From positions 161,553-225,552 of the forward strand of contig NZ_SJPW01000008.1 in assembly GCF_007860125.1 (NCBI RefSeq): a stretch of DNA of 64,000 nt, written 5' to 3'. The notes beneath the pieces are model-generated. The model searched no databases. It was not told the DNA's origin and saw nothing but the letters and a program-made list of their open reading frames with translations. This DNA comes from Rubripirellula tenax. GTDB lineage: Bacteria > Planctomycetota > Planctomycetia > Pirellulales > Pirellulaceae. Shown piece by piece: positions 1-12,260 of this stretch. The first letter of the stretch is position 1. Every line of letters begins with the position of its first letter. The position numbers were made by a program, and so were the translations under genes.

Positions 1-106
1 GCATGACGGCGTACCGTCGTAGTTTTCGGTACGTTGAAAACCGTTTGTCACACAGTTCAGCAAAATGGTCCAAGACGGCGACGATCTGGTCAGGTGTTGG
101 CTTCAC
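1..106 (-). CDS. Partial cassette gene, unknown product (5' end only)
   Basis: A frame opens at a GTG (104-106) just after the attC at 120-212 and runs off the left edge of the window. The readable N-terminus is VKPTPDQIVAVLDHFAELC followed by DKRFSTYRKLRRYAVM. Position and direction fit a cassette gene: minus strand, start a few bases past the recombination box, as with the neighbouring cassettes. No in-frame ATG exists, so GTG is inferred. The short segment matches no family I recognise. Only 35 codons are visible, so this is a reasonable rather than a firm call. Confidence 0.45.
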   Translation of the reverse strand, partial: MKPTPDQIVAVLDHFAELCDKRFSTYRKLRRYAVM

Positions 107-119
107 GGTTGCTAGGTGC

Positions 120-212
120 CAATAACGGTCCGCATCAGCGGGCGTCGGGAGTGATCTTGCAAGCAAAGTGAGCCGCCGACCACCGACGCTCCGTTGCATG
201 CGTTGGTTATCC
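120..212 (-). other. attC site 1 (integron recombination site)
   Basis: Terminal boxes on the plus strand are aataac (121-126) and gttatcc (206-212). The inner arms gcgggcgtcgg and ccgaccaccgacgctccg pair imperfectly, giving the long hairpin typical of attC. It belongs to the same shape class as site 2. Confidence 0.8.
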
Positions 213-560
213 GCGATTGTGGATACGAGGCGGACTGCCAGCGAGCATGGGCCGCGCGAGCGGAAAACAACGACGGAATGTCGCCGCGGTGGGCTGCGAG
301 AGCAGAAAACAACGGCGGGACGCCGCCAGCCTGGACTTCGCCCACGTGGGTGACAACTGTCGAGGTGTGATCGTATCAAAGACGAGTCAGTCAAGCAAGT
401 TTACACGAGTCGATGCCAGCAGCGCGTCGGGCGCACCGGTCAACGAGAACAGAGGCAGCGCACCGATCATCGAGCATTTGTCGAGCGCACGAATCATCGG
501 GCATGCGTTCAGCGCACCATCCGCTGAGCATCAGGACCGCGCAACTCCACGCGCCGAGTC
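213..560 (-). other. Gene cassette without a convincing gene
   Basis: This 348-bp cassette lies between attC 1 and attC 2. Frames on both strands are open because the DNA is repetitive, but every one runs into a flanking attC and none has a good start. It contains a two-copy imperfect repeat of 42 bp (starting at gagcggaaaac, 258, and gagcagaaaac, 300) and the 27-bp tandem repeat listed separately. I see no recognisable protein. Confidence 0.6.
418..552. repeat. Degenerate 27-bp tandem repeat, five units
   Basis: Units start at 418, 445, 472, 499 and 526. The best shared core is (a/c)gcgcac near the middle of each unit, with gagca at the head and atcatc at the tail of several units. The period is a multiple of three, so both strands stay open: minus reads DDSCARQML-like nonapeptides and plus reads ENRGSAPII-like ones. 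It may be a fast-evolving minisatellite inside a cassette rather than a gene. Confidence 0.75.
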
Positions 561-653
561 GGATAACGGTTCGGTTCAGCGGGTGGCGGGAGTGCCCGTG
601 CAAGCAAACGAAGTCGCCGACCACCGCCACTCCGTTGCAACCGTTGGTTATCC
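561..653 (-). other. attC site 2
   Basis: The boxes are ggataac (561-567) and gttatcc (647-653), with inner arms agcgggtggcggg and gccgaccaccgccactccg. The stop codon of the following GNAT gene (TAA, 648-650) lies inside the right box, as is common for cassette genes. Confidence 0.88.
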
Positions 654-1115
654 GCAGTCATGCCGAGACATCGGTTGAAACCGAACGCCATCAATATCGA
701 CCACGCCCCCATCGGGCTTGAAACCAAAGCGCATGTAAGCGGAAACAGCGTTGAGTGAGGAGTTGACAGTAGCAAGGCGCAAGCCACATGAGCGTTGGAC
801 GCGACGGTCGGCTTCGTCGAGCAGTTTAGTGCCAATTCCCGAGCGCTGCAAATCGGAACGAACGAACAAATGGTACAGGTGGATCGGTGGTTTAACGACG
901 ACAACGGCGACGAGGTCGCGATCATCGAATGCGGCTAGATGAAGCCAGTCGTCTTTAAGTCGCTGTAGCGTCGAATCAAAGTCCAGGCTTGCGATCAGCA
1001 CGTCGAGCCCACCAGGCCCGAGCGAAGGGCCAATGTGCTCGCGGGCAAGCGATGACACCAAGAGCGAGATTGCAGCGGCATCGTGTGTGCTGGCATCGCG
1101 AATGTCTACGTGCAT
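648..1115 (-). CDS. GNAT family N-acetyltransferase (cassette gene)
   Basis: The 155-aa protein has GNAT motif A with the acetyl-CoA pyrophosphate loop QRSGIG (about residues 89-94) after the beta-strand HLYHLFV, then motif B NSSLNAVSAYMRFGF. GNAT enzymes move an acetyl group from acetyl-CoA to an amine; the substrate here cannot be told. The frame is open further upstream through the attC, but the ATG at 1115, eight bases past the recombination box, is the natural start and gives a normal GNAT length. The stop is inside attC 2. GNATs are among the most common cassette cargo. It is probably read from a promoter near intI or one within the array; none is visible directly upstream. Confidence 0.9.
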   Translation of the reverse strand: MHVDIRDASTHDAAAISLLVSSLAREHIGPSLGPGGLDVLIASLDFDSTLQRLKDDWLHLAAFDDRDLVAVVVVKPPIHLYHLFVRSDLQRSGIGTKLLDEADRRVQRSCGLRLATVNSSLNAVSAYMRFGFKPDGGVVDIDGVRFQPMSRHDCG

Positions 1116-1122
1116 TTCAGTC

Positions 1123-1212
1123 GGATAACGCTCGACATCACCGGGTGGCGGCGAAAGTCGTGATTTCGAAAAAACGTGACCACCGCCACTCCGGTGCATG
1201 TCATGGTTATCC
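1123..1212 (-). other. attC site 3
   Basis: The boxes are ggataac (1123-1129) and gttatcc (1206-1212). The arms catcaccgggtggcggcg and ccaccgccactccggtgcatg form the hairpin. It is nearly the same class as attC 2, 5 and 6. Confidence 0.9.
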
Positions 1213-1346
1213 CGTCCCAGCCGGCACCGCAATTCGGGTTTTGGGCAGCGGGAACCGCGTCGCTAGATTCTAGCGGGCGCTGGATTCGGCAGCAAGCAAA
1301 TCGAGCATTGCGGTCGTCCAGCGGGTGTTGATCGTAATCGAAGGTT

Positions 1347-1591
1347 GGCCGAAACGGGGACTCTCTCGCCAATGGGTTGTCATGGTGGGAAAAGACAAAT
1401 CGAGCCATTGGCGAGAGTGTCCCCGTTTCGGCCCGTGGAAGCAACGCAAGCCGCTCCAATGGTTAAACAGCCGCAAGTTTCGAGCGTTGCAAAACGTCGG
1501 CAGCAACTTGGAGAACACGACGTTCTGCATCGCCGGAAAAAATAGATCAGCATTACCGAGAGATTTTCCGGCGATGCAGTACGTCGTGTTC
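1347..1591. other. Twin-hairpin cassette element, copy A
   Basis: This fills most of the cassette between attC 3 and 4, which has no convincing gene. Hairpin 1 has arms 1347-1375 and 1405-1433 (29 bp, one T-T mismatch at stem position 16) and a 29-nt loop. Hairpin 2 has arms 1513-1540 and 1564-1591 (28 bp, one T-T mismatch at position 12) and a 23-nt loop. The spacer is 79 nt. Copy B at 2457-2701 has identical arm, loop and spacer lengths. The stems differ from copy B at many places, but changes occur on both arms so pairing is kept. Loop 1 keeps agacaaatcga in both copies. Minus-strand frames cross the element but share no start. Function unknown: a structured RNA, a folded ssDNA site or a small mobile unit are all possible. 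Confidence 0.8.
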
Positions 1592-1700
1592 GTACGTCAA
1601 TTCGAGACAACCGTTGCATCAAAGCCAGTCGGCACACCCGGCATTCGGGCGATGCAAAGCCCAATCGCAAGCATCCGGTCGGCACTCCGCGCTTTCGTCG

Positions 1701-1791
1701 GGATAACGGCGGACATCACGGGGCACGGAGAGTCGACTATCCATTGCAAGAAACGCCGCAAGCCGTGCTCCCGTGCATGTCATGGTTCCCC
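1701..1791 (-). other. attC site 4
   Basis: The boxes are ggataac (1701-1707) and gttcccc (1785-1791), with arms catcacggggcacggagag and gccgtgctcccgtgcatg. It is nearly identical in its core to attC 7, so these two sites form a subclass. Confidence 0.88.
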
Positions 1792-2238
1792 CCGATTTCC
1801 ACCGATACCTCGCACGACGTTGAGCGCTGTTTTAATCCACGGATGTGTCGGTTCGGGAGTATCGAATATACCACCCTCGTATACAGTCAATCCAGAGTGC
1901 AATTGGCTGAGAGTGCCAAAAACATGTTCGATAGCAGATTCGTCCGAGTAGCTGACAACTTGCATTGTCACCATGCAAGTCCCGCCGTTCAGTCTCGCGA
2001 CCAGCCCATCATGGTCACGTCGCTTTGTCGCGAAGCCAATGAGAAGATCAATGTCGTCGTCGAAAATATCTGACCCACGCTCCGTGACGTCAATTTGAAG
2101 AGCGCAATCGTGGTCACCGCGAACTAACGCCTCACCGTCAAAGCGGTATGCGTCGTCGATGGATCGAAGGGCTGTTTCCAACTCGGGAAGCGAGATGGTT
2201 GCCGCATCATCCAGTACGTAGCGGTGGTAGGTTGTCAT
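1780..2238 (-). CDS. Hypothetical cassette protein, 152 aa
   Basis: An ATG twelve bases past the recombination box of attC 5 opens a frame filling the whole cassette and ending inside attC 4, the usual layout for a real cassette gene. The protein is acidic and soluble, with no signal peptide, membrane segment or cysteine motif. The N-terminal part (MTTYHRYVLDD, then ISLPELETALRSIDDAY) looks helical; the middle is beta-like around TCMVTMQVVSYSDES. A stretch near the C-terminus, THPWIKTALNVVRGIGG, could be amphipathic. I do not recognise the family. A cytoplasmic immunity or partner protein would fit its size and composition, but nothing shows that. Confidence 0.75.
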   Translation of the reverse strand: MTTYHRYVLDDAATISLPELETALRSIDDAYRFDGEALVRGDHDCALQIDVTERGSDIFDDDIDLLIGFATKRRDHDGLVARLNGGTCMVTMQVVSYSDESAIEHVFGTLSQLHSGLTVYEGGIFDTPEPTHPWIKTALNVVRGIGGNRGEP

Positions 2239-2249
2239 TCAAGTATGTG

Positions 2250-2339
2250 GGGGAACGTTTGCCATCACCGGGTGGCGGGGGACGACGTGACTTCGAGAAA
2301 ACCCGACCACCGCCACTCCGGTGCATGGCTTGGTTATTC
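2250..2339 (-). other. attC site 5
   Basis: The boxes are ggggaac (2250-2256) and gttattc (2333-2339), with arms catcaccgggtggcgggg and gaccaccgccactccggtg. Same class as attC 3 and 6. Confidence 0.88.
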
Positions 2340-2456
2340 GGTTCCCAGTTCCGCTTAGCAGCGGACAGCACTTGGCCATTGTATTGGGCGGTGAAATCGA
2401 AGACAACCTTTCCGGAGTTGGTTTCCGCTACGGGCTTGGCGCGGTGACCAGCGGGA

Positions 2457-2701
2457 GGCGGAAACGGGGTTGTCGTCACCAATGGTGAGTCCCGGAGGGG
2501 ATAGACAAATCGAACCATTGGTGACGTGAACCCCGTTTCCGCCCGTTGAAGCGAGGCAAATGCTGCCAATGCCGAATGAGTGACCGTAGATGGGCGTTGC
2601 CAACCGCTGGCCTTAGCTTGGAGATCGGGACGTTCCGTATCGCCGGTGACAATGAACCAGCGCGACCAAGAAAGTCACCGGCGATACGGTACGTCCCGAT
2701 C
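2457..2701. other. Twin-hairpin cassette element, copy B
   Basis: Second copy of the 245-nt element, in the cassette between attC 5 and 6. Hairpin 1 has arms 2457-2485 and 2515-2543 with a 29-nt loop; mismatches are at stem positions 16 (G-G) and 17 (T-T). Hairpin 2 has arms 2623-2650 and 2674-2701 with a 23-nt loop and the same T-T mismatch at position 12 as copy A. The spacer is again 79 nt. Relative to copy A, six pairs in stem 1 (positions 4, 14, 15, 18, 19, 22) and eight in stem 2 (3, 5, 6, 14, 16, 25, 26, 28) are changed on both sides. No protein-coding gene is convincing in this cassette. Confidence 0.8.
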
Positions 2702-2822
2702 GGCCTGGCCATCGAATAGACAGTTGAAACAGAGCCATCCAGCGTTGCCGGCAGTCGTGTGAGCCTATCACGCATCCGGCCTTGAGCGAGGATTGGCGTC
2801 GACGACCAAAGTGTTGCAGCCC

Positions 2823-2912
2823 GAATAACGTCTCACATCACCGGGTGGCGGCGATTGACGTGATTCCAAAGAAACGTGACCACCGCCACTCCGGTGCATG
2901 TGTTTGTTATCG
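2823..2912 (-). other. attC site 6
   Basis: The boxes are gaataac (2823-2829) and gttatcg (2906-2912), with arms catcaccgggtggcggcg and ccaccgccactccggtgcatg. Same class as attC 3 and 5. Confidence 0.88.
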
Positions 2913-3278
2913 GCATTTATGAACGGGCATTGGTCGAGCATCGGGCAGCGGTTGCCACGCCGCCACAGTTTAGCGGGACTTGGTTCACGCGGCAAGCAAT
3001 TGGGCGTTGACCGGGTCGGCAGTAAAACGGCAATTGTCATCCGACAGTGCTTGTTGACGGTAAACGAAGGATCAAAAGCGTTGTCGCTTGATCAGCAAAC
3101 GAAAACAGCGAACACGTTCAAGAATTGCGAGCGGCTTGGAGGGAGGAAATCGCAAACGGAGGATCAATGCGTTTGACTCGCAAATTCGCTAACGCGAATG
3201 CCGAACGACAAATTTCCAATCAGGCGTTGCAGCAATCGCTAGTGCGAGCGAACGCGTGAAACACCTGAGACGTCAGTC
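2913..3278 (-). other. Gene cassette without a convincing gene
   Basis: In this 366-bp cassette no minus-strand frame spans the space between the recombination boxes. The longest minus stretch is about 34 codons from a TTG, ending at a TGA and followed by another short open stretch. A plus-strand frame of 92 codons starts inside attC 6 and looks like a shadow. The notable content is a direct repeat (listed separately) and a small hairpin, aaaagcg-ttgt-cgctt, flanked by gatca on both sides. Confidence 0.55.
3062..3167. repeat. Imperfect direct repeat, 14 bp, 92 bp apart
   Basis: The sequence aaacgaaggatcaa at 3062-3075 recurs as aaacggaggatcaa at 3154-3167, each followed by a gcgtt within a few bases. 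The first copy is the left half of a hairpin with cgcttgatca. The meaning is unknown. Confidence 0.5.
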
Positions 3279-3369
3279 CGATAACGTCGGACATCACGGG
3301 GCACGGAGAGTTGAGCATCCAATTCAGCAAACGCCGCAAGCCGTGCTCCCGTGCATGTCATGGTTCCCC
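3279..3369 (-). other. attC site 7
   Basis: The boxes are cgataac (3279-3285) and gttcccc (3363-3369), with arms catcacggggcacggagag and gccgtgctcccgtgcatgt. Core nearly identical to attC 4, although the cassettes they end are unrelated. Confidence 0.88.
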
Positions 3370-3522
3370 GCTATTCTCGTCTCAGTCGCTGGGTACCGTC
3401 AATGTCGTGATCGTCAATTTCGACTGAGTGTCGCGTTTTGGAGACCGCAAGAAATATCCCGCCGCTGCGTAATCGTCGATGCCAAGAACGCAAGGTAAAG
3501 CGTGAGCTTGCGCGTCGTCCAA

Positions 3523-3783
3523 TCAAGGTCCAATGCCAACAAGTACGCCAGCGGTAAGAAACACGACAACGCCTTCAACCAGAGTCATACCGCGTGAATT
3601 CAGTGGATAAAGCGATTGCCAAGGTAAATGGGAAACAATCATTTGCAGTCCGCCACAGAGCAGATAGGCCCAGCCAAGCCCGCGAAGGTTTGCGACGCGG
3701 AAACCGGCAAAGAGCAGTGCAAGGTAAAGCGTGACAATAAACAACGACAACAGGGAAAGCCGACGGTTTCGCTTTGAGTCCAC
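3523..3783 (-). CDS. Small membrane protein of a cassette, possibly frameshifted
   Basis: This 86-aa frame encodes three hydrophobic helices: LSLLSLFIVTLYLALLFAGF, then GWAYLLCGGLQMIVSHL, then VEGVVVFLTAGVLVGIGP. No ATG is in frame; GTG at 3783 or TTG at 3789, just inside the cassette, are the candidate starts. A different frame has an ATG at 3793 but its product is not membrane-like, so I prefer this one. The stop at 3523 leaves about 150 bp unused before attC 7. A neighbouring frame continues from that point with another TLYLAFLA-type hydrophobic stretch and ends at 3414, so a frameshift may have removed a fourth helix. Function unknown. Confidence 0.55.
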   Translation of the reverse strand: MDSKRNRRLSLLSLFIVTLYLALLFAGFRVANLRGLGWAYLLCGGLQMIVSHLPWQSLYPLNSRGMTLVEGVVVFLTAGVLVGIGP

Positions 3784-3799
3784 GATCAAACATTCAGTC

Positions 3800-3888
3800 G
3801 GGGAACGTCCGCCGTCACCGGGCGGCGAGAGTAAAGTGAGCCACCGGGAAACGCGATGACGCCGCTCCGGTGCACGGCATGGTTCGCC
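3800..3888 (-). other. attC site 8
   Basis: The boxes are ggggaac (3800-3806) and gttcgcc (3882-3888), with arms cgtcaccgggcggcgagag and gacgccgctccggtgcacgg. Confidence 0.86.
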
Positions 3889-3889
3889 G

Positions 3890-4213
3890 CTATGGTGCAT
3901 CATCAGTTTCCAGGTGTTCATCACTCTGTCCACTGTTGGCACTGTCCCTGCGCCCGCTCGTGAACGACCGATAGATTAGAGTGCAGCCGAAAACGGCAAT
4001 GGGCGCGCCGAAGTTGTAATACAGGTCAGGTGTCTCATCGAGAAAGAAGTCAATCGAAAATAGTATCACGAGAACAGCAAGGCCTTGCAGTATTGCACTA
4101 CGAAAGTCTTCCACGCTCAAGGTGCGGCTGGAATTTTCTTTTTCGGCTGGTGGTTCGTATGGATTCAATTCGCTGATCGGTTTGGTCGCTTGGGTGTCGG
4201 CGAACGTTACCAA
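3890..4213 (-). CDS. Small membrane protein with NPYEPP motif (cassette gene)
   Basis: The 107-aa frame has the motif ELNPYEPPAE near its N-terminus, followed by two hydrophobic segments (LQGLAVLVILFSIDFFL and YYNFGAPIAVFGCTLIY) and a charged tail. NPY-P(P) N-termini are very common in small planctomycete membrane proteins, so this cassette was probably captured within the phylum. The likely start is TTG at 4213, inside the attC on its right, meaning the start codon would come from the neighbouring cassette. A second in-frame TTG at the L of LNPYEPP is the alternative. The stop lies one base left of attC 8's right box. The role is unknown; it probably sits in the inner membrane. Confidence 0.7.
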   Translation of the reverse strand: MVTFADTQATKPISELNPYEPPAEKENSSRTLSVEDFRSAILQGLAVLVILFSIDFFLDETPDLYYNFGAPIAVFGCTLIYRSFTSGRRDSANSGQSDEHLETDDAP

Positions 4214-4288
4214 TCACCCGGCACGCGCGGTAGATTGTCCATTTGAAAACGCCCGGCTCGCGTGCTCGGGTGCATTGGATGGTTCTGC
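4199..4288 (-). other. attC site 9
   Basis: The boxes are ggcgaac (4199-4205) and gttctgc (4282-4288), with arms atcacccggcacgcgcgg and gctcgcgtgctcgggtgcat. It is related to attC 13, 15 and 16. Confidence 0.84.
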
Positions 4289-4846
4289 CTTCGCCCAGGC
4301 TTGAATCGCCTCACAAAGGCTGTCATGCACTTGATCGGGTATGCACAGCCCGAATCCAAGTAGCCCTGAGCGCGATTGCAGATGGAGCATTCCATGACTT
4401 GCCGTCAAGAGAACGTTCGAAACGTCTAAATCCCGACGATGCAGGTCCCAACGAATTCTTTTCTGGAGTGCGCGCGACCAGACTGGGTGAAGACGCTCGC
4501 CGTACGTGTTGCAAAGATAAAGTAATCCAGGGCGACCAGAATCGTATCCGATCTGGTGCGGTGTGAAATGCAAGGAAATCGGGACCGGGGGAAAGATCAC
4601 ACGCGAAGATGCAAATATGCCAATCGCAATCCATAGTCCGGCAAAGGCGAAGCGGGCAGCAAGCTCAGCCGATCCAAACCAATCGTGAGGGAATCTCGCT
4701 AAATGGATGTCGGGAAGAACGAGGATAAGTCCCACGCACATCACTGCGAACTGGACAACCGCGAGCGCCCGTTCCTCCGATGCGCTACCCAACGCGACTT
4801 CGATGGTCGTTTCGGAATCAGCTGACGCGATTGAGACGTCAATCAT
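4214..4846 (-). CDS. Cassette membrane protein with two TM helices and a cytosolic domain
   Basis: The 210-aa protein starts at ATG 4846, shortly after the attC 10 box. Residues about 28-48 (LAVVQFAVMCVGLILVLPDI) and 64-86 (ARFAFAGLWIAIGIFASSRVIF) are hydrophobic and likely membrane-spanning. The rest, from SLHFTPHQIGYDS onward, looks like a mixed alpha/beta domain of the kind found after paired TM helices in PH-like membrane proteins, but I cannot assign it to a family. The last 25 or so residues are translated from attC 9, so the functional C-terminus is probably near SLCEAIQAWAKA. No neighbouring gene hints at function. Confidence 0.75.
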   Translation of the reverse strand: MIDVSIASADSETTIEVALGSASEERALAVVQFAVMCVGLILVLPDIHLARFPHDWFGSAELAARFAFAGLWIAIGIFASSRVIFPPVPISLHFTPHQIGYDSGRPGLLYLCNTYGERLHPVWSRALQKRIRWDLHRRDLDVSNVLLTASHGMLHLQSRSGLLGFGLCIPDQVHDSLCEAIQAWAKAEPSNAPEHASRAFSNGQSTARAG

Positions 4847-4867
4847 CGGAAGTGCAAATCTTCAGTG

Positions 4868-4959
4868 GCAGAACGGTTACGATCACCGAGCCGGAACGAT
4901 AAATCTAATTACTGAAAAAGACGCGCAAGTCCGGCTTCGCGTGCATCGTTTTGTTATCC
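4868..4959 (-). other. attC site 10
   Basis: The boxes are gcagaac (4868-4874) and gttatcc (4953-4959), with arms ggttacgatcaccgagccgg and ccggcttcgcgtgcatcg. Outer arms match attC 11 almost exactly; the loop between them differs. Confidence 0.86.
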
Positions 4960-4970
4960 CGCGATGAGAA

Positions 4971-5471
4971 TCAATATTGATCCAGAAATGGTTCCATAAA
5001 AGATTCGCCCTGAACCTCTTCAAATTCTGTTGAAAACCGAACAACTTGACCAAGGGATCCTTGAAGTTCAATCGCCTTTTTAAGCGATTCGACCATCTCT
5101 GGATATCGTTTAAGTTTCATTAATGCATATGATTTCCGGTAGTGTGCGGTGAATGAGCGAGACCAAATGCTAAGTGCAGAGTCGAATTCCACCAACGATT
5201 CTTCGTAGCGACCTAATTCAATCAAGGACTTTCCGGCATAGTTTCTCGACGAGACGCCCCACGGGTTAATAAGTGAAGCCCTCCTGAAAGAAGTCACGGC
5301 GGATTCCATTTCGTTTTCATCCAGTGGTTCGTATATCGTCGAACCGCCTCCCGCCTCGTAGTATCCCCAGCCCCATTGCCAACAAACGGAGTAGGCGAGC
5401 CACCAACACGTTGCCAATATCACGACGCCGCTGAGCAATCGCCGCCACCATGTTTTTTTGGATTTGCTCAA
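4971..5471 (-). CDS. Membrane-anchored TPR protein (cassette gene)
   Basis: The 166-aa protein begins MSKSKKTWWRRLLSG, a positive N-terminus, followed by one hydrophobic segment (VVILATCWWLAYSVCW, about residues 16-31): a signal anchor. Residues about 55-125 carry tetratricopeptide-type helix pairs, seen in NPWGVSSRNYAGKSLIELGR, YEESLVEFDSALS and AHYRKSYALMKLKRYPEMV. TPRs bind proteins; the partner is unknown. The gene nearly fills its cassette and its stop lies just before attC 10, so it looks intact. The domain should face the periplasm given the positive N-terminus. Confidence 0.82.
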   Translation of the reverse strand: MSKSKKTWWRRLLSGVVILATCWWLAYSVCWQWGWGYYEAGGGSTIYEPLDENEMESAVTSFRRASLINPWGVSSRNYAGKSLIELGRYEESLVEFDSALSIWSRSFTAHYRKSYALMKLKRYPEMVESLKKAIELQGSLGQVVRFSTEFEEVQGESFMEPFLDQY

Positions 5472-5487
5472 AAGACTAGCCTAAGCG

Positions 5488-5581
5488 GGATAACGGTTAC
5501 GATCACCGAGCCGGAACGGAAATCTTGCAAGCAGAAAAAAGCACACGCAAGTCCGGCTTCGCGTGCATCGTTTTGTTATCT
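5488..5581 (-). other. attC site 11
   Basis: The boxes are ggataac (5488-5494) and gttatct (5575-5581). The left arm ggttacgatcaccgagccgg and right arm ccggcttcgcgtgcatcg are shared with attC 10, while the central loop is about 3 bp longer. Confidence 0.87.
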
Positions 5582-6199
5582 GGCCAATTCTTCGGGTCGG
5601 CGCTCCTCGAACCAGTCATTCAGGATGAAACTATTTGGTTGAGGATTGCCAAACATCGGTTTAGTTTCAATGTTCTGGAGAATCGGTTGAATCATCATGA
5701 ATTTCATGAATGATGGATCGTCAGTCGGGAAGTTCTGAATTTGATTTGCTGCGGTCTCAGCGGAATGCTTCACGGCAGTAGAGAAGTTTTCCCAGAGTTC
5801 CGCTGGAACGTCAGATCGCTCTTTCGTGTTCTTGAAGTTCGCGCAAATCGCAGCGCAAATCGACAAAGGCCATTGGGCATCCTTGGGATCGCTCGATTGA
5901 GCAGCGATTTTTTCGAGATGTGGATAGACAGCATAGGCTGCGGGGTAAATCTCGAAAGTCTCAAGATCGCAACATTCGTGGAAGATCCTAAAGTATTGAT
6001 CGTCACCATTGGGAGGCAAGCTCAGCAGTGACGCAATGTCTGATCCAGTGCCGGTTCGACTGGCGTAGTTGGCCCATTGCGCATCATCCAGCCCAAGTAC
6101 GTTTCTGTTCACGGTGACCTCATTGGTTGAGTTCGCACTCTCATTGCAGCCAGCAAGCATAAAGAGCAGCGCTACGATTGGGATGTAATTGGCTCTCAT
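5576..6199 (-). CDS. Cassette lipoprotein, 207 aa
   Basis: The frame is open through attC 12, but ATG 6199 is chosen because it gives a clean lipoprotein signal: MRANYIPIVALLFMLAGCNE with lipobox LAGC and Cys18 as the lipidation site. The mature part is soluble and mostly helical, with residues such as FRIFHECCDLETF and LSICAAICANFKNT. Spacing of the cysteines does not suggest a metal site I know. The stop TAA lies in the box of attC 11. The N-terminus after Cys18 is followed by a Ser/Asn/Thr-rich linker, normal for surface lipoproteins. Family and function unknown; the protein is likely attached to the outer or inner membrane after processing by Lgt. Confidence 0.8.
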   Translation of the reverse strand: MRANYIPIVALLFMLAGCNESANSTNEVTVNRNVLGLDDAQWANYASRTGTGSDIASLLSLPPNGDDQYFRIFHECCDLETFEIYPAAYAVYPHLEKIAAQSSDPKDAQWPLSICAAICANFKNTKERSDVPAELWENFSTAVKHSAETAANQIQNFPTDDPSFMKFMMIQPILQNIETKPMFGNPQPNSFILNDWFEERRPEELAR

Positions 6200-6210
6200 T
6201 GGTTCAGGCC

Positions 6211-6301
6211 AGATAACGATTGCAATCACCCGGTCGCGACGAGAGATTCTCAATTGTCAAAACGCCCGACTTCGCGACTCGGGTGCATTGCTTGGTTATT
6301 T
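6211..6301 (-). other. attC site 12
   Basis: The boxes are agataac (6211-6217) and gttattt (6295-6301), with arms gcaatcacccggtcgcgacg and cttcgcgactcgggtgcatt. Confidence 0.86.
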
Positions 6302-6769
6302 GGCTTCCGCTGCTCTGAGTTTGTTTATCGCCTTCAGCACATTAGCTCGGTTCTTGGCGGCAATCATCCATGCGGGGAGCGAGCTTGCAAGGGTCGAGTT
6401 TCGAATCCTTTTTTCAATCGCTGTCGCTTCCGTCAGGCCGATACGATGATCCGCACCGACATACGAAGCGAGAAACGTTAAGTGGGAGTAGTTGTATGCC
6501 CACAGCGTATGTCCGCAGCAGGGAGTCTGTAGTCAAAGATTGTATCCGAAAACCCAATCCACTGGTTCACGGTCTGACCAACCGCCCAACCTTCCATCCT
6601 TTGTCGATCCACAATGTGGACAACAGAAACGTGCGCGCCATGGATGAACTTCAACGTCGGTCTCGAATCGGGTCACGTCTGCGCACGAATCACACTTCGG
6701 GCATCGAACCAAGAACCGGCCAGTGAAATCGTGGATTGATGTTCCGTCATCCAGATGGCGAGTGTCCAT
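6296..6769 (-). pseudogene. Zinc-ribbon cassette protein interrupted by one in-frame TGA
   Basis: From ATG 6769 the frame gives a zinc ribbon (RCPKCDSC, CCPHCGSTKDG) and reaches a TGA at 6533-6535 after 78 codons. The same frame stays open past the TGA for 78 more codons and ends at a TAA (6296-6298) inside attC 12, exactly where intact cassette genes end. The downstream part reads LQTPCCGHTLWAYNYSHLTF, then LASSLPAWMIAAKNR and [14 protein letters not shown]. From memory, zinc-ribbon proteins of this kind have the block LWLQTPCCG, so the TGA replaces the Trp codon TGG by one base change. It is either a recent nonsense mutation or a site of readthrough. Downstream codons show no other damage. 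Confidence 0.78.
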
Positions 6770-6779
6770 GGTCTTTGCC

Positions 6780-6870
6780 AAATAACGTCCCGCGTCACCG
6801 GGGCCCGTGAGTTGAGTATCCATTCGAGAAAACGAACCAACGGGCCTCCGCGTGCACGCGATGGTTACCC
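6780..6870 (-). other. attC site 13
   Basis: The boxes are aaataac (6780-6786) and gttaccc (6864-6870), with arms gcgtcaccggggcccgtgag and acgggcctccgcgtgcacgc. Confidence 0.86.
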
Positions 6871-7392
6871 GCCGTTACGGGTTTCGAGCATCGTGTTAGG
6901 TTTAGAATCGTGTAGCCGCTTGATCGCGGCGTCAGAAAATGGCGCCGTACCCGAGACGATCGCGTAAGGTTGTTCAAGCTCCGATAGGCGGTCAGCCGAT
7001 CGGTCAGTTAGGTTTGGGCAGTCGAGGGAGACAGACATCAATGGCAGTGTGCACAAAGCATCAAAGCCAACGTCGGTCATCGTTGAGTTGTCGATCGAAA
7101 CATAAAAGAGCCGGGATTCGCCGGGACCGAGAAATGTAAAGCCAGTTGGAAGGCGCGACAATTCAGGGACGAGGGCAAGCATGGCGTCGTCGGTTGCAGC
7201 GTCACCGCGGAGGTCGAGCATGTAGTTTCCGTCAACCATGTCAAACATCATGAAACCACCGTGAGATTCAACCAATTCGCGAACGCGGTCGAATTGCGAT
7301 TGGCGTTGATGGTAGACGAGAAACGGAGCCGTAAGCAGGCAACCAGTTGCGAGAGCGAAGCACGTCGTCAGAATCGCAAAGCGTCGTGACAT
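6865..7392 (-). CDS. Cassette protein, exported or lipid-anchored, LRR-like
   Basis: The 175-aa protein starts MSRRFAILTTCFALATGCLL, which is either a lipoprotein signal (ATGC, Cys18) or a signal anchor. The mature region has features of short planctomycete leucine-rich-repeat-like proteins: regular Leu/Asp spacing in LDLRGDAATDDAMLALVPEL, MTDVGFDALCTLPLMSVSL and LTDRSADRLSELEQPYA, where TD-GF-AL resembles their repeat unit. It fills its cassette and its stop is in attC 13. The LRR protein at 42286-43179 shows the same T-D/E-G pattern, so the cassette may derive from a planctomycete chromosome. Exact function unknown. Confidence 0.75.
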   Translation of the reverse strand: MSRRFAILTTCFALATGCLLTAPFLVYHQRQSQFDRVRELVESHGGFMMFDMVDGNYMLDLRGDAATDDAMLALVPELSRLPTGFTFLGPGESRLFYVSIDNSTMTDVGFDALCTLPLMSVSLDCPNLTDRSADRLSELEQPYAIVSGTAPFSDAAIKRLHDSKPNTMLETRNGG

Positions 7393-7410
7393 GTGGATGT
7401 GAATTCAGTC

Positions 7411-7502
7411 GGGTAACGCTGGCGATGACCGCGGTCGCCGTGAGCGATCATCCATTGTCAAAACGGCCGGATCGGCGACTCCGGTCCATCGCTTGGTTCG
7501 CC
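7411..7502 (-). other. attC site 14
   Basis: The boxes are gggtaac (7411-7417) and gttcgcc (7496-7502), with arms ggcgatgaccgcggtcgccg and gatcggcgactccggtccatc. Confidence 0.86.
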
Positions 7503-7520
7503 GCTTCCCTTGGCGAGGCG

Positions 7521-7877
7521 TTACGACCCAGCCATCCCTTCGTATTCCCATTGCATGAAAACACGCAGTTGACCCACAAGCTCTTCCCAGCTGTGGCCGC
7601 AGACCGATTCTACACGATCACGAATCGCTTTCTCGACCGTTGCGGCATCATATTGGTCTACCAGTATACCAGGCACAAATTTATCGTGTTTGATTCGTCC
7701 AACAGCACGTGGAGTAGCGACGCAAACCTGAAAATCATTGCCGCCGAGAACGTCGGTGGCACCAACCGTCAAATGGAACCATCCGAAGTCATCGTATGGG
7801 TCAGGTGACTGGTATTGTAGGAAGGCATTCCAGTCGACATGGTCGTTAGATTCTAAGTGGTGAATTTCAGCCCGCAT
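7521..7877 (-). CDS. Imm8-like immunity protein (cassette gene)
   Basis: The 118-aa protein from ATG 7877 matches my memory of the Imm8 family of polymorphic-toxin immunity proteins: an N-terminal MRAEIHHLESNDH, then a beta-rich core FGWFHLTVGATD, then DFQVCVATPRAV, a helix DAATVEKAIRDRVESV, and CGHSWEELVGQLRVFMQWEYE at the end. Imm8 proteins are thought to bind and neutralise a cognate toxin in the cytoplasm. No toxin gene is present in the window, so the gene is an orphan immunity candidate that could protect against neighbours. An upstream in-frame start at 7958 lies within attC 15 and is less likely. Assignment rests on pattern memory, not a search. Confidence 0.75.
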   Translation of the reverse strand: MRAEIHHLESNDHVDWNAFLQYQSPDPYDDFGWFHLTVGATDVLGGNDFQVCVATPRAVGRIKHDKFVPGILVDQYDAATVEKAIRDRVESVCGHSWEELVGQLRVFMQWEYEGMAGS

Positions 7878-7907
7878 CACATCAGGTCTTGCGCAAGTGA
7901 TTCCGTC

Positions 7908-7999
7908 GGCGAACGGTACGCGTAACCGGGAACGCGCGGGAAAGATTCTAACGGCCAAATCACTAAGCTCGCGTTCTCCGGTTCACGCGATGGTTACCC
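7908..7999 (-). other. attC site 15
   Basis: The boxes are ggcgaac (7908-7914) and gttaccc (7993-7999), with arms gcgtaaccgggaacgcgcgg and gctcgcgttctccggttcacg. Confidence 0.85.
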
Positions 8000-8367
8000 G
8001 CCGTCTTGGTAGTCAGTCTAGTGTCACCGATCCCTACCGTGCCCGCAATGCGAGCAGACCGATCCATCCCAGCGAAAACGAAATCCGCAGGATGGACAAC
8101 GTCCAGCATGGCCCATCGAGTGCGGTCATGCGGTTTGACGCGAAGCCAGTCACAGTTCGGGCAGTCCATCTGTGTAGGGCTGCGATGTCCAGCGCCACAA
8201 CCGGGGCAAATGCCGCTGTAAGACGTAAAGAAGATCGGCGGTCTTTTATTCTCAATACGTTCGATAGCGGATTCAAGTGAGCCAGCATCGTCGATTAGTA
8301 GCTTGCATTGGAGGACGCCAAACCCCGTCAGTTTCCGAAGTGCCATTACGTCTTGTGCGTTTGTCAT
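7963..8367 (-). CDS. Cassette protein with EF-Ts/UBA-like helix bundle and zinc ribbon
   Basis: The 134-aa protein starts MTNAQDVMALRKLTGFGVLQ and continues CKLLIDDAGSLESAIERIE. This resembles the UBA-like N-terminal domain of elongation factor Ts (pattern KELRE-TGAGMMDCKKAL), though the gene is clearly not EF-Ts. A treble-clef or zinc-ribbon motif follows: ICPGCGAGH then DCPNCDWL, four cysteines about 13 residues apart by pair. The last 20 or so residues come from attC 15, so the native C-terminus may be near AGTVGIG. In EF-Ts the domain binds EF-Tu; a similar role here is only a guess. The start is a clean ATG 34 bp past the recombination box. Confidence 0.75.
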   Translation of the reverse strand: MTNAQDVMALRKLTGFGVLQCKLLIDDAGSLESAIERIENKRPPIFFTSYSGICPGCGAGHRSPTQMDCPNCDWLRVKPHDRTRWAMLDVVHPADFVFAGMDRSARIAGTVGIGDTRLTTKTAGNHRVNRRTRA

Positions 8368-8400
8368 GGAGTCGCGTGTTACGTCTGCGGCATTTCAGTC

Positions 8401-8491
8401 GGGTAACGTCACGCGTCACCGGGCACGCGCGAAAGATTCTCAACTGCCAACTCGCCTGGCTCGCGTGCTCCGGTGCACGCGATGGTTCGCC
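8401..8491 (-). other. attC site 16
   Basis: The boxes are gggtaac (8401-8407) and gttcgcc (8485-8491), with arms gcgtcaccgggcacgcgcg and gctcgcgtgctccggtgcac. Confidence 0.88.
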
Positions 8492-9335
8492 GCTTCTTCG
8501 ATTTCGCGTCGAATATGAACCGTAGGCGTCGTAGATTCTCCGTTGGATCGCCATTGTGGACGGCAAGATGGCAATTGGAGCAGATGCACATCAATTGGTC
8601 TAGCGTCGTCCTATGGTTTGGTTGCATTTCAGCCAAAGGCACAGTGTGGTGAACCTCGATCAAACCGCGACCCATGGGACCGTATTCCTTCTCGAAATTG
8701 AAACCGCAGATTTCGCAAAACAGGTCGCCGTGTACGGCAAGAAACGCGTTGATCTTCTCAAGTCGAATCTTGTGATCGCGTTCCTTGTCGCGATGTATTC
8801 TATATTGTTCGTCACCCTCGAATGCCCAGATATCGCGATGCAGATCATCTTCTATTGTCCGGCGTCGCGGCATTGCGAACGCATCTTCGGGCCATTCGGC
8901 ATCGAGATTCGCGATGGCAGTCTTGCGAGCCTCGATAGCAAGCCTCTTTGCTTCCTCCTCTCCATATTTGTCAATCGAGAAATTGCGGTGCCGACGTTTA
9001 CCTTTGGATGGACACCAAGACGCGACCCAGTAGTAGACGGGCGTCCCATCGACGCGGTAGTGGCCTATCGTCTTGTAAACACCCGTGATTCCGGAGGTGT
9101 TATGAGACTTCCCAAGTTCGGCGTACTCGCGACGGTCGCGTGGCGGAATGATTTCCAGCGCTTCCTTGCGCCAAGCGATCGCTGCTTCGAGGGATTTTTC
9201 AGGTGAGCCGTACTTTGCGTCCGAAAAAGACTGACTGAAGGGTACGCCTTCGCGCATGTATCGAGCATTCCATCCCGTAATGGATTGCTCGTAGTCGAGC
9301 CGAGATATGCCGCGTGGAGGATCGGGGATAGCCAT
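8409..9335 (-). CDS. AP2-like DNA-binding / HNH nuclease (cassette gene)
   Basis: The 308-aa protein has a likely AP2/ERF-type DNA-binding region at about residues 79-135 (NTSGITGVYKTIG, YYWVASWCPSKGKRRHRNFS) and an HNH nuclease domain at about 204-262: CEIC (Cys207, Cys210), EVHHTVPL (His229-His230), then CSNCHLAVH (Cys252, Cys255, His256, His260). The paired cysteines should bind a structural zinc and the histidines a catalytic metal. AP2-HNH fusions occur in mobile homing endonucleases and phage nucleases, while other HNH proteins act in restriction, so a mobility or defence role is plausible. The residues after about 283 are translated from attC 16. It is among the youngest cassettes, near attI. 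Confidence 0.87.
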   Translation of the reverse strand: MAIPDPPRGISRLDYEQSITGWNARYMREGVPFSQSFSDAKYGSPEKSLEAAIAWRKEALEIIPPRDRREYAELGKSHNTSGITGVYKTIGHYRVDGTPVYYWVASWCPSKGKRRHRNFSIDKYGEEEAKRLAIEARKTAIANLDAEWPEDAFAMPRRRTIEDDLHRDIWAFEGDEQYRIHRDKERDHKIRLEKINAFLAVHGDLFCEICGFNFEKEYGPMGRGLIEVHHTVPLAEMQPNHRTTLDQLMCICSNCHLAVHNGDPTENLRRLRFIFDAKSKKRRTIACTGAREPGELAVENLSRVPGDA

Positions 9336-9348
9336 GGCAGTTGTTGTC

Positions 9349-9438
9349 GGCGAACGTCAGGATTAACCGAGTCGCGAGGAATGACTATGGATTCACAAAA
9401 CAACGCTGCCGCGACTTCGGTTCAATCCGTTGTTCGTC
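9349..9438 (-). other. attC site 17 (closest to intI)
   Basis: The boxes are ggcgaac (9349-9355) and gttcgtc (9432-9438), with arms aaccgagtcgcgagg and gccgcgacttcggttcaatcc. The plus-strand gene that follows starts inside it. Confidence 0.8.
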
Positions 9439-9686
9439 GTTGCGTCGATTGCGGCTCGACCAATATCGTCAAAGAGTTGCCAATTCGCGATCGTGTGCAT
9501 GAAGGTCCACAGCCGTCGCTTTGTTGGCCGGATTTATGCCGCCATCAAGTCCAAGTGCAAATGATGGATGGTAGTGACCCGCCAAGATGTGCGTGGTGCG
9601 GCAAAGACTACAGCGAGACTCGCGAATTGACGCTAGAAGAACAAATGGACTCGATGGCAAGGAATCGTGCCGCGTGGCTCGATTAG
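9387..9686 (+). CDS. Small zinc-finger protein in reverse orientation to the array
   Basis: The 99-aa frame is on the plus strand, toward intI, opposite to the other cassette genes. It has two CxxC knuckles, VRRCVDCGSTN and PRCAWCGKDY, about 45 residues apart, suggesting one zinc ribbon, and an acidic tail TRELTLEEQMDSMARNRAAW. ATG 9387 (or 9381) lies within attC 17, so the N-terminal 15 codons are attC sequence; a start at the end of the attC would lack an ATG. The middle includes SLCWPDLCRHQVQVQ. A minus-strand frame here (9469-9660) is shorter and less convincing. Inverted cassette genes are known but uncommon. Confidence 0.6.
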   Translation: MDSQNNAAATSVQSVVRRCVDCGSTNIVKELPIRDRVHEGPQPSLCWPDLCRHQVQVQMMDGSDPPRCAWCGKDYSETRELTLEEQMDSMARNRAAWLD

Positions 9687-10212
9687 CATACGACGAACTT
9701 GTTTCTCACCCGTTGCAGTGGGTGGAAATACCGTGTTTTGACTTATTATCACGGGATGAACCTTCGGTAGCCTGGGGGGCGGCCGGACTTATTATCTCCT
9801 GGCGAGGCTTCGCTACCGCGTTGGTCATGGACTTATTATCACCGGTTCGGATGGGGGATGCAATCATTGGTAGCGCCGAGTTCAGAGCAATTTTCACTTC
9901 GAGGGCGCCGTCCTTTTGAGCGGTGTCGGTGGCACTGCTGTGCTGTTGCTCCCGCCGTTGTCGAGGGCTCTCTAAGTTCTCTTGTCTAAGCTCTCTTGTC
10001 ATCCGGCAATGAACTACTCGACGCAGACTGCCTGGTCGCCCAAATAGAAGTGCTTCTGTGCTGCATCGCCGTTGCATCCCCGCTGGAGGATGGTGTACGT
10101 TATTGCACTCACCGCTCGACACTTGGTTGAAGCGGTGTTTTGTCCGTCGGGCAGATCGGGGCGGCGGTGAATTTCTGCCTCGGTGAGGACCTAGAGCCGC
10201 AAGGTTGAGGGA
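9687..10212. other. attI-like region between the array and intI
   Basis: This 526-bp non-coding stretch is where attI, the array promoter Pc (reading left) and the intI promoter (reading right) should lie. The triplicate repeat at 9740-9840 is listed separately. A short direct repeat, ctaagttctcttgt and ctaagctctcttgt, occurs at about 9973-10001. I cannot place the exact attI crossover, and no clear -35/-10 pair or LexA box stands out. A frame at 9706-10122 minus has no protein-like features. Confidence 0.5.
9740..9840. repeat. Three direct repeats gacttattatc, 44-46 bp apart
   Basis: Exact 11-mers start at 9740, 9786 and 9830, each followed by (a/t)c. Regular spacing of about four helical turns beside intI suggests protein-binding sites, for instance the integrase direct repeats seen in some attI sites. 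On the minus strand they read gataataagtc, which also resembles -10 elements. Confidence 0.7.
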
Positions 10213-10221
10213 GTGGCGAAC

Positions 10222-11679
10222 ATGTCGATGTTTGAGAAGCCATCACGGGCTGAGCAGGAATTGAAGTGGGCGAAGATCTGGTTCAAGCAGTTCAGCAACT
10301 TTCATAAGCGAAGCGGGAAGACGGGCTGGGACTTCTCGCCCGACGATGTGATCCTGTTTTTGCGTTCCAAACGCGACCAGCGAATGCCAGCTTGGAAGCG
10401 AATGAAGATCCTGAACGGACTGCTGGTGTACCGCCGGTTTGAGCAAGAACTGCCGATTGATCCGTTCGCTTTCATCGTTGACAAGATGAAGGAAATTGTC
10501 GCCAACGAGCGGGCTAAACAAGACGGATACGACACGATCGAAGATGTGGTAGGCAAAATCGATCCAAAGGAATCGGATGCGATCCAACAATTCAGACGGG
10601 CCCTTCGCAAGGACGGCATGCGGTTGCAGACGGAGCGTTCTTATGTCGGCAAAGTGAAGGCTTTCATGGCGGACCGCGGCATGAGTTGCTTGGCCGATTT
10701 TGAAAGGGTGGGAGCTTCGGACGTCGAGGACCATTTGACGGATCTTGCGGTCGATGGCAACGTCGCCGCGTCGACTCAGAACACCGCGTTCCACGGTTTA
10801 CTGAAGTTCTTCACGCTGGTGCTGCGGCGTGACATGGGGCACATCGAGGCCATTCGCGCCGGCAAGGGCAAACAGATTCCGACGGTGTTGAGTACGAGCG
10901 AGGTCGCCCGCGTCTTTGACGGCTTGGAGGGCGTTCATTTGACGATCGCACAGTTGCTTTATGGATGTGGGATGCGGATCAGCGAGGCGATCCGGCTGCG
11001 AGTGAAAGATATCGATTTCGAAAATGGGTTGATTGAGATTCATCAAGCCAAAGGAGGCAAGAGTCGACTCGTGCCGTTGCCGTCGGAGTTGGCGGAGCCG
11101 CTGCGCCGGTTCATCGATTCACGACGTTCGCTTCACGAACATGATTTGGCTAATGGCACGGCGTCGGTTTGGTTGCCGCACGCGCTGCATCGCAAATACC
11201 CATCGGCTCATCGCGAGTTTCGTTGGCAGTACTTGTTCGCATCACACCGCTTGTCGCGTGACCCTCGCACCGGTGATCGTCACCGACACCATCTGCATCA
11301 CGAAACGTTCCCTCGGCACTTGAAAGTGGCGGTTGACGGGGCGGGCATCGACAAGCATGTGACCAGCCACACGTTTCGGCATTGTTTCGCAACGCATTTG
11401 CTTTGGACAGGCACGGACATACGGGCGGTGCAAGAGTTGCTGGGGCACAGTGACGTCAAGACAACGATGATCTACACCCACGTGATGAACCGGCCCGGGG
11501 TGCGGGTGACAAGCCCGCTCGACCGTTTGGTAGAGGAAGAGTCTCGCAAAATGGGCGAGGGCGATTCGCAGATTCAGGAATTGCCGACTGCATACGAGAC
11601 TGGGACGTTGCAATTCGATGGGAGGGATCGGGACGCTGTTTGCGTTGATGGAAACGCAGGTTATTTGATCGCGGGGTAG
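10222..11679 (+). CDS. intI: Integron integrase (tyrosine recombinase IntI) with long N-terminal extension
   Basis: Catalyses cassette insertion and excision at attI and attC. From ATG 10222 (preceded by gaggga) it has 485 aa, against about 320-340 for most IntI. The C-terminal domain has the tyrosine recombinase set: Arg252 (CGMRISEA), Lys in AKGGKSR, His383 and Arg386 (HTFRHCFATH), His409 (LGHSD) and Tyr418 (MIYTHV). The IntI-specific insert is present at about 320-345 (ALHRKYPSAHREFRW, LFASHR), which separates it from XerC/D and in IntI helps bind folded attC. The N-terminal 140 residues, FKQFSNFHKRSGKTGWDFSPD and on, resemble an extra SAM-like core-binding region. GTG 10213 is an alternative start. 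It is transcribed away from the array, the classical arrangement, and looks intact. Confidence 0.95.
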   Translation: MSMFEKPSRAEQELKWAKIWFKQFSNFHKRSGKTGWDFSPDDVILFLRSKRDQRMPAWKRMKILNGLLVYRRFEQELPIDPFAFIVDKMKEIVANERAKQDGYDTIEDVVGKIDPKESDAIQQFRRALRKDGMRLQTERSYVGKVKAFMADRGMSCLADFERVGASDVEDHLTDLAVDGNVAASTQNTAFHGLLKFFTLVLRRDMGHIEAIRAGKGKQIPTVLSTSEVARVFDGLEGVHLTIAQLLYGCGMRISEAIRLRVKDIDFENGLIEIHQAKGGKSRLVPLPSELAEPLRRFIDSRRSLHEHDLANGTASVWLPHALHRKYPSAHREFRWQYLFASHRLSRDPRTGDRHRHHLHHETFPRHLKVAVDGAGIDKHVTSHTFRHCFATHLLWTGTDIRAVQELLGHSDVKTTMIYTHVMNRPGVRVTSPLDRLVEEESRKMGEGDSQIQELPTAYETGTLQFDGRDRDAVCVDGNAGYLIAG

Positions 11680-12260
11680 AGGTAGTCGCGAGTGGGTGCC
11701 GTGTTGCACGAGCGGTTACGCCAAACGGGTTCTTGGTCCCGGGCTAGGAATCGCCGCAAATGCGAGGCGGCAATGGTTTCGACTCGCGTTGAGCAACGCC
11801 TTGCCGCGATGGCCCTGGTCGCTGTCGAGTCATGCCTGCCCGAACGCAAAATCGCACACGATCGGATCCTCCATCACATCAAGTTCGCACCATTGTTGAA
11901 CAATCTTCCCGCCAATCCAGTCATCACTTGGTAGGTCGAAACATGGAACGGGCGCTCCGCCGGAGTCGCCCACAGCGCATTGCCGTCGCTGGCGTATTCA
12001 CAAACGAAAGACCAACCCGGGAATTCCTGGGCTGCGGCGACCGGGTCCGTCTAAGCAGCGGCATCGGGATCGGGATCGGGATCGGGATCGGCTGCGTTTT
12101 TTGACTTGGATATTACCGCCGTTTTTTACACGACCAAACGGGTGGCCGAAAACCACGCGATTGAAACCACGCCGACGACGACTGAGCCGATAAGCGATGG
12201 TGTCCTTATATCAGGTCTTGGGTCTTGTACGAAAATTGAAGAGTAGCTGAACACAATCGA
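11680..12260. other. Gene-poor interval after intI
   Basis: I see no convincing gene in 581 bp. The most protein-like stretch is on the minus strand, 11874-12050: 58 open codons reading QEFPGWSFVCEYASDGN, then ALWATPAERPFHVSTYQ, with a stop on each side and no start codon. It may be a decayed gene end. Plus-strand frames are short. The hexamer repeat at 12063-12091 lies just upstream of that stretch. Confidence 0.5.
12063..12091. repeat. Hexanucleotide microsatellite (atcggg), 4.8 copies
   Basis: Perfect tandem atcggg units. On the minus strand it reads as an Asp-Pro run ending in a TAG. Perfect copies suggest recent slippage, so copy number may vary between strains. Confidence 0.85.

Follow-up and report, generated by a model that had tools for sequence, protein, structure and literature searches.

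A putative gene-less integron cassette with a twin-hairpin body and a promoter-like segment in Rubripirellula tenax

The window, a stretch of 64,000 nucleotides from Rubripirellula tenax (contig NZ_SJPW01000008.1, positions 161,553 to 225,552), contains the head of an integron array, in which a recombinase gene on the plus strand (10213-11679) is followed by cassettes that read leftwards and carry attC repeats. The Pfam matches PF00589 and PF13495 identify the gene product as a tyrosine recombinase, presumably the integron integrase, with its integron type assigned by position and by the attC array and not by an IntI-specific model. It comprises 488 amino acids with the Pfam domains starting at residue 124, and the N-terminal part is without a Pfam match. 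Two other open reading frames (ORFs) of the array match the Pfam immunity protein Imm8 (7521-7958) and the Pfam AP2 and HNH endonuclease domains (8409-9335).

Two cassettes on the minus strand each contain a pair of long hairpins. Cassette 1 (578 bp, 1130-1707 from crossover to crossover) was cut out after attC detection, with its boundaries visible in an alignment of copies. Read in cassette sense, its start is followed by hairpin 2 (1513-1591; 28-bp arms, 23-nt loop, mismatch at pair 12), a spacer of 79 nt (1434-1512) in which CTCCAAG adjoins hairpin 2 and TTGG lies farther along, hairpin 1 (1347-1433; 29-bp arms, 29-nt loop, mismatch at pair 16), a predicted sigma70-like promoter (TTGCTG-17-TAGAAT, 1267-1295) and the attC site (1126-1212, approximate ends). 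Cassette 2 (573 bp, 2257-2829), delimited by attC detection and cassette cutting, shows the same order with hairpin 2 at 2623-2701, a 79-nt spacer at 2544-2622, hairpin 1 at 2457-2543 with mismatches at pairs 16 and 17, a predicted promoter (TTGTCT-17-TACAAT, 2378-2406) and an attC site at 2253-2345, again with approximate ends. Both spacers were identified by reading, and the hairpins of cassette 2 as inverted repeats. The covariance models R2 and R1 described below match hairpins 2 and 1 with 103 and 96 bits in cassette 1, a copy used for training both models, and with 100 and 95 bits in cassette 2. The cassette downstream of cassette 1 carries an ORF with a Pfam match to GNAT acetyltransferases (648-1232, minus strand); as listed this ORF overruns the attC site, and the frame inside the cassette begins later and encodes 155 amino acids. 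Downstream of cassette 2 lies an ORF of 152 amino acids (1780-2238, minus strand) without a Pfam family.

The twin hairpins extend over 245 nt each (1347-1591 and 2457-2701) and were detected as four inverted repeats (I1-I4). In positions 1-10000 of the window four centres of such repeats were found, compared with none in 20 mononucleotide shuffles, and the RNA-fold z-scores of the two copies against shuffles were -13.6 and -10.2. The geometry given in the original prediction, with arms of 29 and 28 nt, loops of 29 and 23 nt and a spacer of 79 nt in both copies, was confirmed, and its estimate of about two thirds identity corresponds to 66.5% in an ungapped comparison over 245 nt. Stem 1 differs at eight pairs and not at six as first counted, stem 2 differs at the eight pairs expected, and all of these pairs are altered on both sides. 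In plus-strand letters, the stem-2 mismatch at position 12 is indeed T-T in both copies; the stem-1 mismatch at position 16 is retained as a site, but reads T-T in copy 1 and G-G in copy 2, and copy 2 has an additional T-T mismatch at position 17.

Two copies turned out to be an underestimate. A search of the genome with copy 1 revealed 16 further long matches with 76-81% identity in addition to copies of a second type, and altogether the R. tenax genome contains 25 complete elements (21 close and 4 diverged) and one partial element. In an alignment of 19 copies with their flanks, in which two rows (L013 and L020) were trimmed wrongly, conservation covers the region between successive attC crossovers and gives way to unrelated sequence beyond them. 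Since the conservation stops at the attC crossovers, the twin hairpin constitutes the body of a whole cassette. Such elements are present in 26 of the 259 detected cassettes (about 10%), always in the orientation of the array; attC sites and cassettes were counted using a purpose-made regular expression which misses sites. Both hairpins were found in 25 of these cassettes, and in the remaining one (C10:13963-16476) hairpin 2 was recognized by model R3 with 53.8 bits and R1 finds no hairpin 1. The elements thus form units with attC crossovers at both ends, in an array headed by a presumed integrase gene, and they are without a conserved coding frame. Judged from sequence comparison, the element is very probably a complete gene-less cassette consisting of a selected twin-hairpin body and a promoter-like segment directed at the cassette that follows.

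About 268 attC sites were seen in R. tenax, located on contigs C10, C17, C8, C23 and C29, at the ends of C6 and the end of C1, and near 832 kb of C1; these array pieces may be parts of a single very large integron. A number of contigs break off close to twin-hairpin cassettes, as repeats would lead one to expect. The sense strand of the twin-hairpin cassettes is rich in C and T, with a C/G skew of 0.091 in the 26 cassettes compared with 0.047 in 214 others. A second multi-copy gene-less family of 450-456 bp was also observed, with a 456-bp copy in the window at 2830-3285: 17 R. tenax cassettes align over 331-356 nt and 20 more share part of the sequence. By eye the window copy contains TTGCCG-17-TAAACT and a CTCCAAG stretch without twin hairpins. 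The 456-bp cassettes are more skewed (0.123, n = 17), likewise without twin hairpins.

To follow the element beyond this genome we used covariance models for hairpin 1 (R1) and hairpin 2 (R2) and a later, broader model (R3); the wide searches were strictly filtered, so that weak relatives may have been missed. The search, proposed in the original prediction, yielded many matches with covarying pairs. Within the genus, R1 detected the element in 3 and R2 in 5 of 22 genomes, R. tenax included. Among 241 genomes of the family R3 matched seven: R. tenax, four other members of the genus (G018, G021, G011 and G002) and one member each of two other genera (G032 and G240). G002 contains solely a single hairpin outside integrons, which leaves twin elements in six genomes, namely R. 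tenax, three other members of the genus, one of them Rubripirellula obstinata, and the members of the two other genera. Of 396 genomes of the order seven gave a match, five of which were already known; the other two (G047 and G397) gave weak matches to near-perfect, G+C-rich palindromes with no TTGG loop motif seen, and were taken for chance. Only R. tenax itself was matched among 392 genomes of the phylum, so that with these strict filters nothing credible was found in the genomes sampled outside the family. A pattern scan of genome contigs returned four stretches of Rubripirellula obstinata CECT 8602 and one of Streptomyces, the latter apparently a chance match; the corresponding scan of viral contigs was empty, and a search with one element in plasmids and in phages gave no match.

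The elements of G018, G021, G032 and G240 lie among attC-like sites as judged by reading, with an imperfect automatic check. The expectation that matches would always occur in cassettes without genes was borne out in part: the twin elements lie in arrays where the flanks are readable, but two single-hairpin relatives are located outside. These single hairpins have the hairpin-2 core and a CTCCAA flank and were seen in R. tenax (L104, G000:C6:327323) and in G002 (L102, C1:7739932); their surroundings are alike, and the sequence following the hairpin has matches in two more genomes.

In total 43 elements were collected. Hairpin 2 was evaluated in 38 of them, leaving aside L099 (contig end), L100 and L101 (degenerate hairpin 2) and L102 and L104 (single hairpin), and hairpin 1 in 37, with L138 also lacking hairpin 1 at a contig end. 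Diverged elements have largely different stem sequences and the same shape. For 15 sequences of hairpin 2, with the alignment structure drawn by hand from those same sequences, both sides were changed at 13 of 28 pairs and 99.0% of the cells were paired; the covariation score was 0.422, compared with 0.145 for shuffled and at most 0.103 for slid alignments. Eight sequences of hairpin 1, all with exactly 79 nt, showed changes on both sides at 15 of 28 pairs (score 0.494 versus 0.169), and seven sequences restricted to the lineages of the window at 7 of 28 pairs (0.286 versus 0.118). In this seven-sequence alignment the number of double-changed pairs was reached by 170 of 500 shuffles. Further pair types did not exceed the shuffles either, with the count reached by 347 of 500 for hairpin 2 and by 110 and 498 of 500 for the alignments of eight and seven hairpin-1 sequences. 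Covarying base pairs, as expected of an RNA family, were present in all three alignments, with the relatedness of the sequences outside the model. These comparisons support a cassette body of two long hairpins whose pairing appears to be under selection, with template switching, discussed below, as a partial caveat.

Hairpin 2 consists of 11 pairs, a 1x1 mismatch, about 15-17 further pairs, capped by a loop that mostly measures 22-26 nt, and the lengths of stems and loops are held nearly constant. At pair 12 an A.A mismatch is found in 35 of the 38 elements, and the remaining three, all from G240, have C.C at pair 10 together with further mismatches. Hairpin 1 carries an A.A mismatch in 35 of 37 elements at a varying pair number, and two copies have lost it. 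The core around the mismatch of hairpin 2, GACGTACCG / CGGAACGTC, is shared by most lineages of the genus and nearly so in G032. We also observed that hairpin 1 of diverged lineages (L009:9199-9451, L019:14440-14690 and relatives) contains the core of hairpin 2 with the arms exchanged, and that in diverged lineages similar CGCTTTT..CC stretches seem by eye to precede both hairpins; the sequences look as if the pair of hairpins had arisen by duplication. A pseudoknot between CTTGG in the loop of hairpin 2 and CCAAG just past this hairpin fits most Rubripirellula copies by eye. It is broken in L010, L014 and L009_8098 and absent in L136 and L137, and we do not claim it.

Variation among 16 close copies, picked by one sequence pattern, is concentrated outside the stems. 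Only 7 of 112 stem positions are variable (0, 5, 2 and 0 of 28 per arm), in contrast to 92 of 251 sites in the upstream region, loops and spacer, and diversity in the stems is about a tenth of that in loops and spacer. Low variation was also found outside the long stems, with 4 of 50 variable sites between hairpin 1 and the -35 box and 8 of 84 in attC.

Genes in cassettes are usually promoterless. Between hairpin 1 and attC a sigma70-like promoter is predicted in cassette sense, which would point at the next cassette. The prediction was evaluated with a purpose-made weight matrix and 60 shuffles per element for 25 hand-chosen elements out of 43, a set with many close copies, seven of the 25 representing one close type. 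The best sense match had p<=0.03 in 19 of the 25 elements; among the controls this value was reached in 2 of 25 elements upstream on the antisense strand, and in none of the 25 either upstream in sense or within the promoter segment read antisense. The six weaker elements (L019_4486, 0.07; L094_2545, 0.08; L100, 0.37; L136, 0.13; L137, 0.18; L139, 0.18) include all three tested elements from other genera. In the close copies one of six positions is variable in the -35 box and two of six in the -10 box, compared with 7 of 17 in the intervening stretch. The promoter of cassette 1 was recognized with p = 0.03 and that of cassette 2 with 0 of 60 shuffles as good; a simpler and stricter scan returned two sites versus 1.1 expected, with the cassette 2 promoter among them and that of cassette 1 missing. 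The two predicted promoters would be directed at the GNAT acetyltransferase cassette and at the cassette with the 152-aa ORF. A sense ORF of at least 80 amino acids within the first 100 nt opens the next cassette in 16 of 23 cases and in 125 of 212 other cassettes, and because of this similarity the neighbours add no support for the promoter. Blanco et al. (PMC11014356) report promoter activity for Vibrio gene-less cassettes and describe in silico prediction there as unreliable. The twin-hairpin cassette probably serves as a mobile internal promoter of the array.

The question of the strand on which the hairpins act was addressed by comparing wobble pairs. Among 1195 cells of distinct stems, read on the sense strand, 11 were G.U and 26 C.A. 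After collapsing by hand for shared ancestry the numbers were about 10 and 17, and within Rubripirellula they were about even. An excess of G.U over C.A, as expected of an RNA family on the cassette-sense strand, was thus not found in these small and partly dependent numbers, which lean weakly toward a role at the DNA level. The promoter-like segment, the share of about a tenth of all cassettes and a wobble pattern that does not point to sense-strand RNA had been overlooked in the original prediction. Folding with DNA parameters was clearly better on the bottom strand for the five hairpins 2 from G032 and G240, and among 30 distinct hairpins 2 the sense strand was more stable in 19, mostly slightly. 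As described in PMC8946536, the bottom strand is exchanged in integron recombination and the complementary strand is newly made. From the wobble pattern and the exchange of the bottom strand we rank folded DNA first, with RNA roles as a close second. The hairpins would be folded DNA structures with an effect in cis, and the most likely strand is the bottom one (the plus strand of the window), the strand in which attC takes its folded form and that is exchanged in cassette movement; here they could provide a site for starting complementary-strand synthesis or, alternatively, keep the bottom strand folded for recombination. We put this forward tentatively, with strand and function both inferred. 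The joint explanation, a gene-less cassette with a predicted promoter and hairpins acting as folded DNA, is our preferred reading at a confidence slightly short of even. That the cassette is of a distinct kind, combining a mismatched twin-hairpin signal in single-stranded DNA, which would aid its own movement or copying on the exchanged strand, with a promoter for its neighbour, is rather doubtful.

The alternatives account for parts of these data. The strong covariation of both hairpins would equally follow if they functioned in cassette-sense RNA, either in trans after read-through, which other predicted promoter cassettes in the array could supply, or as a 3'-end, processing or insulating element before the next promoter, and their position just upstream of the predicted promoter agrees with a role in RNA. 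Loop and flanking motifs kept across lineages fit RNA as well as DNA. A selected sense RNA, however, should show more G.U than C.A, the reverse of the observed ratio; upstream of hairpin 2 no consistent promoter is present, and a scan of six loci against Rfam gave no match at or above the gathering threshold. For positions 1-12000 of the window nine Rfam matches at E values up to 1 were obtained, all below gathering and eight of them microRNA models lying on the hairpins. A role as intrinsic terminator was rejected, as no T-run follows hairpin 1 and the region 1050-3400 contains four terminator-like sites versus 2.7 expected. We regard a function in sense RNA as possible, with a likelihood of roughly one third. 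A frame of 127 amino acids, whose start codon lies 13 nt inside the cassette, runs through both hairpins and had to be taken seriously as an ordinary gene for a small protein, as 7 of 16 close copies have kept it. Yet seven others stop after six codons and two enter other frames, one of them containing an N; variable sites are evenly distributed over the codon positions (31, 33 and 37 of 127), and the synonymous share of 38/117 (0.325) is close to the expected 0.299. In none of six frames did this share exceed expectation by more than 0.02. A conserved coding frame, which would have spoken against the original view that coding is not favoured, did not appear, and we consider a small protein extremely unlikely. 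With covarying pairs present and coding rejected, the proposed class of structured gene-less cassettes with selection for pairing is supported.

Paired changes can also arise by mutation, when replication switches templates between the arms of a quasipalindrome and corrects one by the other; PMC8794818 contains a description of such switching as a source of paired-change patterns without wobble intermediates. In agreement with this, the changes in the stems nearly always affect both sides, wobble intermediates are very few, and two copies have lost the hairpin-1 mismatch. The same process should, however, erase the A.A mismatch at pair 12 of hairpin 2, which is kept in 35 of 38 elements, and on its own it would not leave the stems with about one tenth of the variation of the loops; the lengths of both are nearly constant, and no inverted loop was seen by eye. 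Template switching is a likely contributor to the paired changes and improbable as their whole explanation. The two hairpins with a conserved mismatch finally recall the recognized hairpins of IS200/IS605-like elements, and could be the ends of a non-autonomous transposon of this type or of a MITE that landed inside a cassette. The single-hairpin relatives outside integrons in two genomes would agree with such an origin, but the conserved unit terminates at the attC crossovers and not at the ends of the hairpins, and the stem sequence is largely free across lineages, which makes transposon ends very improbable.

The preferred reading of a gene-less promoter cassette with hairpins acting as folded DNA was compared with known systems. 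Paired palindromes of the REP/BIME type are dispersed hairpin pairs able to act on DNA or RNA; the twin hairpins differ in lying inside attC-bounded cassettes and in their stems of 27-30 bp. With attC sites, as treated in PMC8946536, they share the imperfect palindrome, unpaired positions, folding of a single strand and a largely free sequence, but the cassette ends outside the twin hairpins, a normal attC is present in addition, and the stems are longer and paired. We also considered the twin hairpins themselves as attC sites and rejected this, as the cassette boundaries lie in the separate attC and not inside the folded hairpins. The nearest cassette-borne RNA found is sRNA-Xcc1 of Xanthomonas integrons, on a cassette widespread in that genus which, according to the account in PMC12444791, also encodes symE, both oriented against the array; the twin-hairpin cassette, in contrast, encodes no protein and has no Rfam match at the gathering threshold in six loci. 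The first description of sRNA-Xcc1, in PMC2996969, does not use the word integron in its main text. Similar in composition are the gene-less promoter cassettes of Vibrionaceae superintegrons, which in the description of PMC11014356 likewise have their own attC, a place in a large array and a promoter in sense orientation that can drive the following cassette, the last predicted in our case. What distinguishes the cassettes described here is their conserved twin-hairpin body, with covariation seen across three genera; the main text of PMC11014356 does not contain the words hairpin, secondary structure or palindrom. In the available text of open-licence papers on integrons with non-coding RNA, Planctomycetes arrays, gene-less cassettes, covarying RNAs and Rubripirellula, no such element was found. 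Taken together, the gene-less promoter cassette is a kind already known, with the promoter predicted here, and the structured twin-hairpin body is new.

A large chromosomal integron can contain hundreds of cassettes without an assigned use, which raises the questions of how the distant ones are expressed and how cassettes multiply. If the more far-reaching idea of a single-stranded DNA signal combined with a promoter holds, the twin-hairpin cassette would be selected for serving the integron and not for a gene. Hairpins that act on single-stranded DNA would give integrons a second signal of folded DNA in addition to attC; as RNA they would define a new class of RNA carried by cassettes. Accounting for about a tenth of one array, with a promoter-like segment and an elaborate twin hairpin retained despite wide divergence in sequence, the gene-less cassette may offer a direct handle on both the expression and the multiplication of cassettes.
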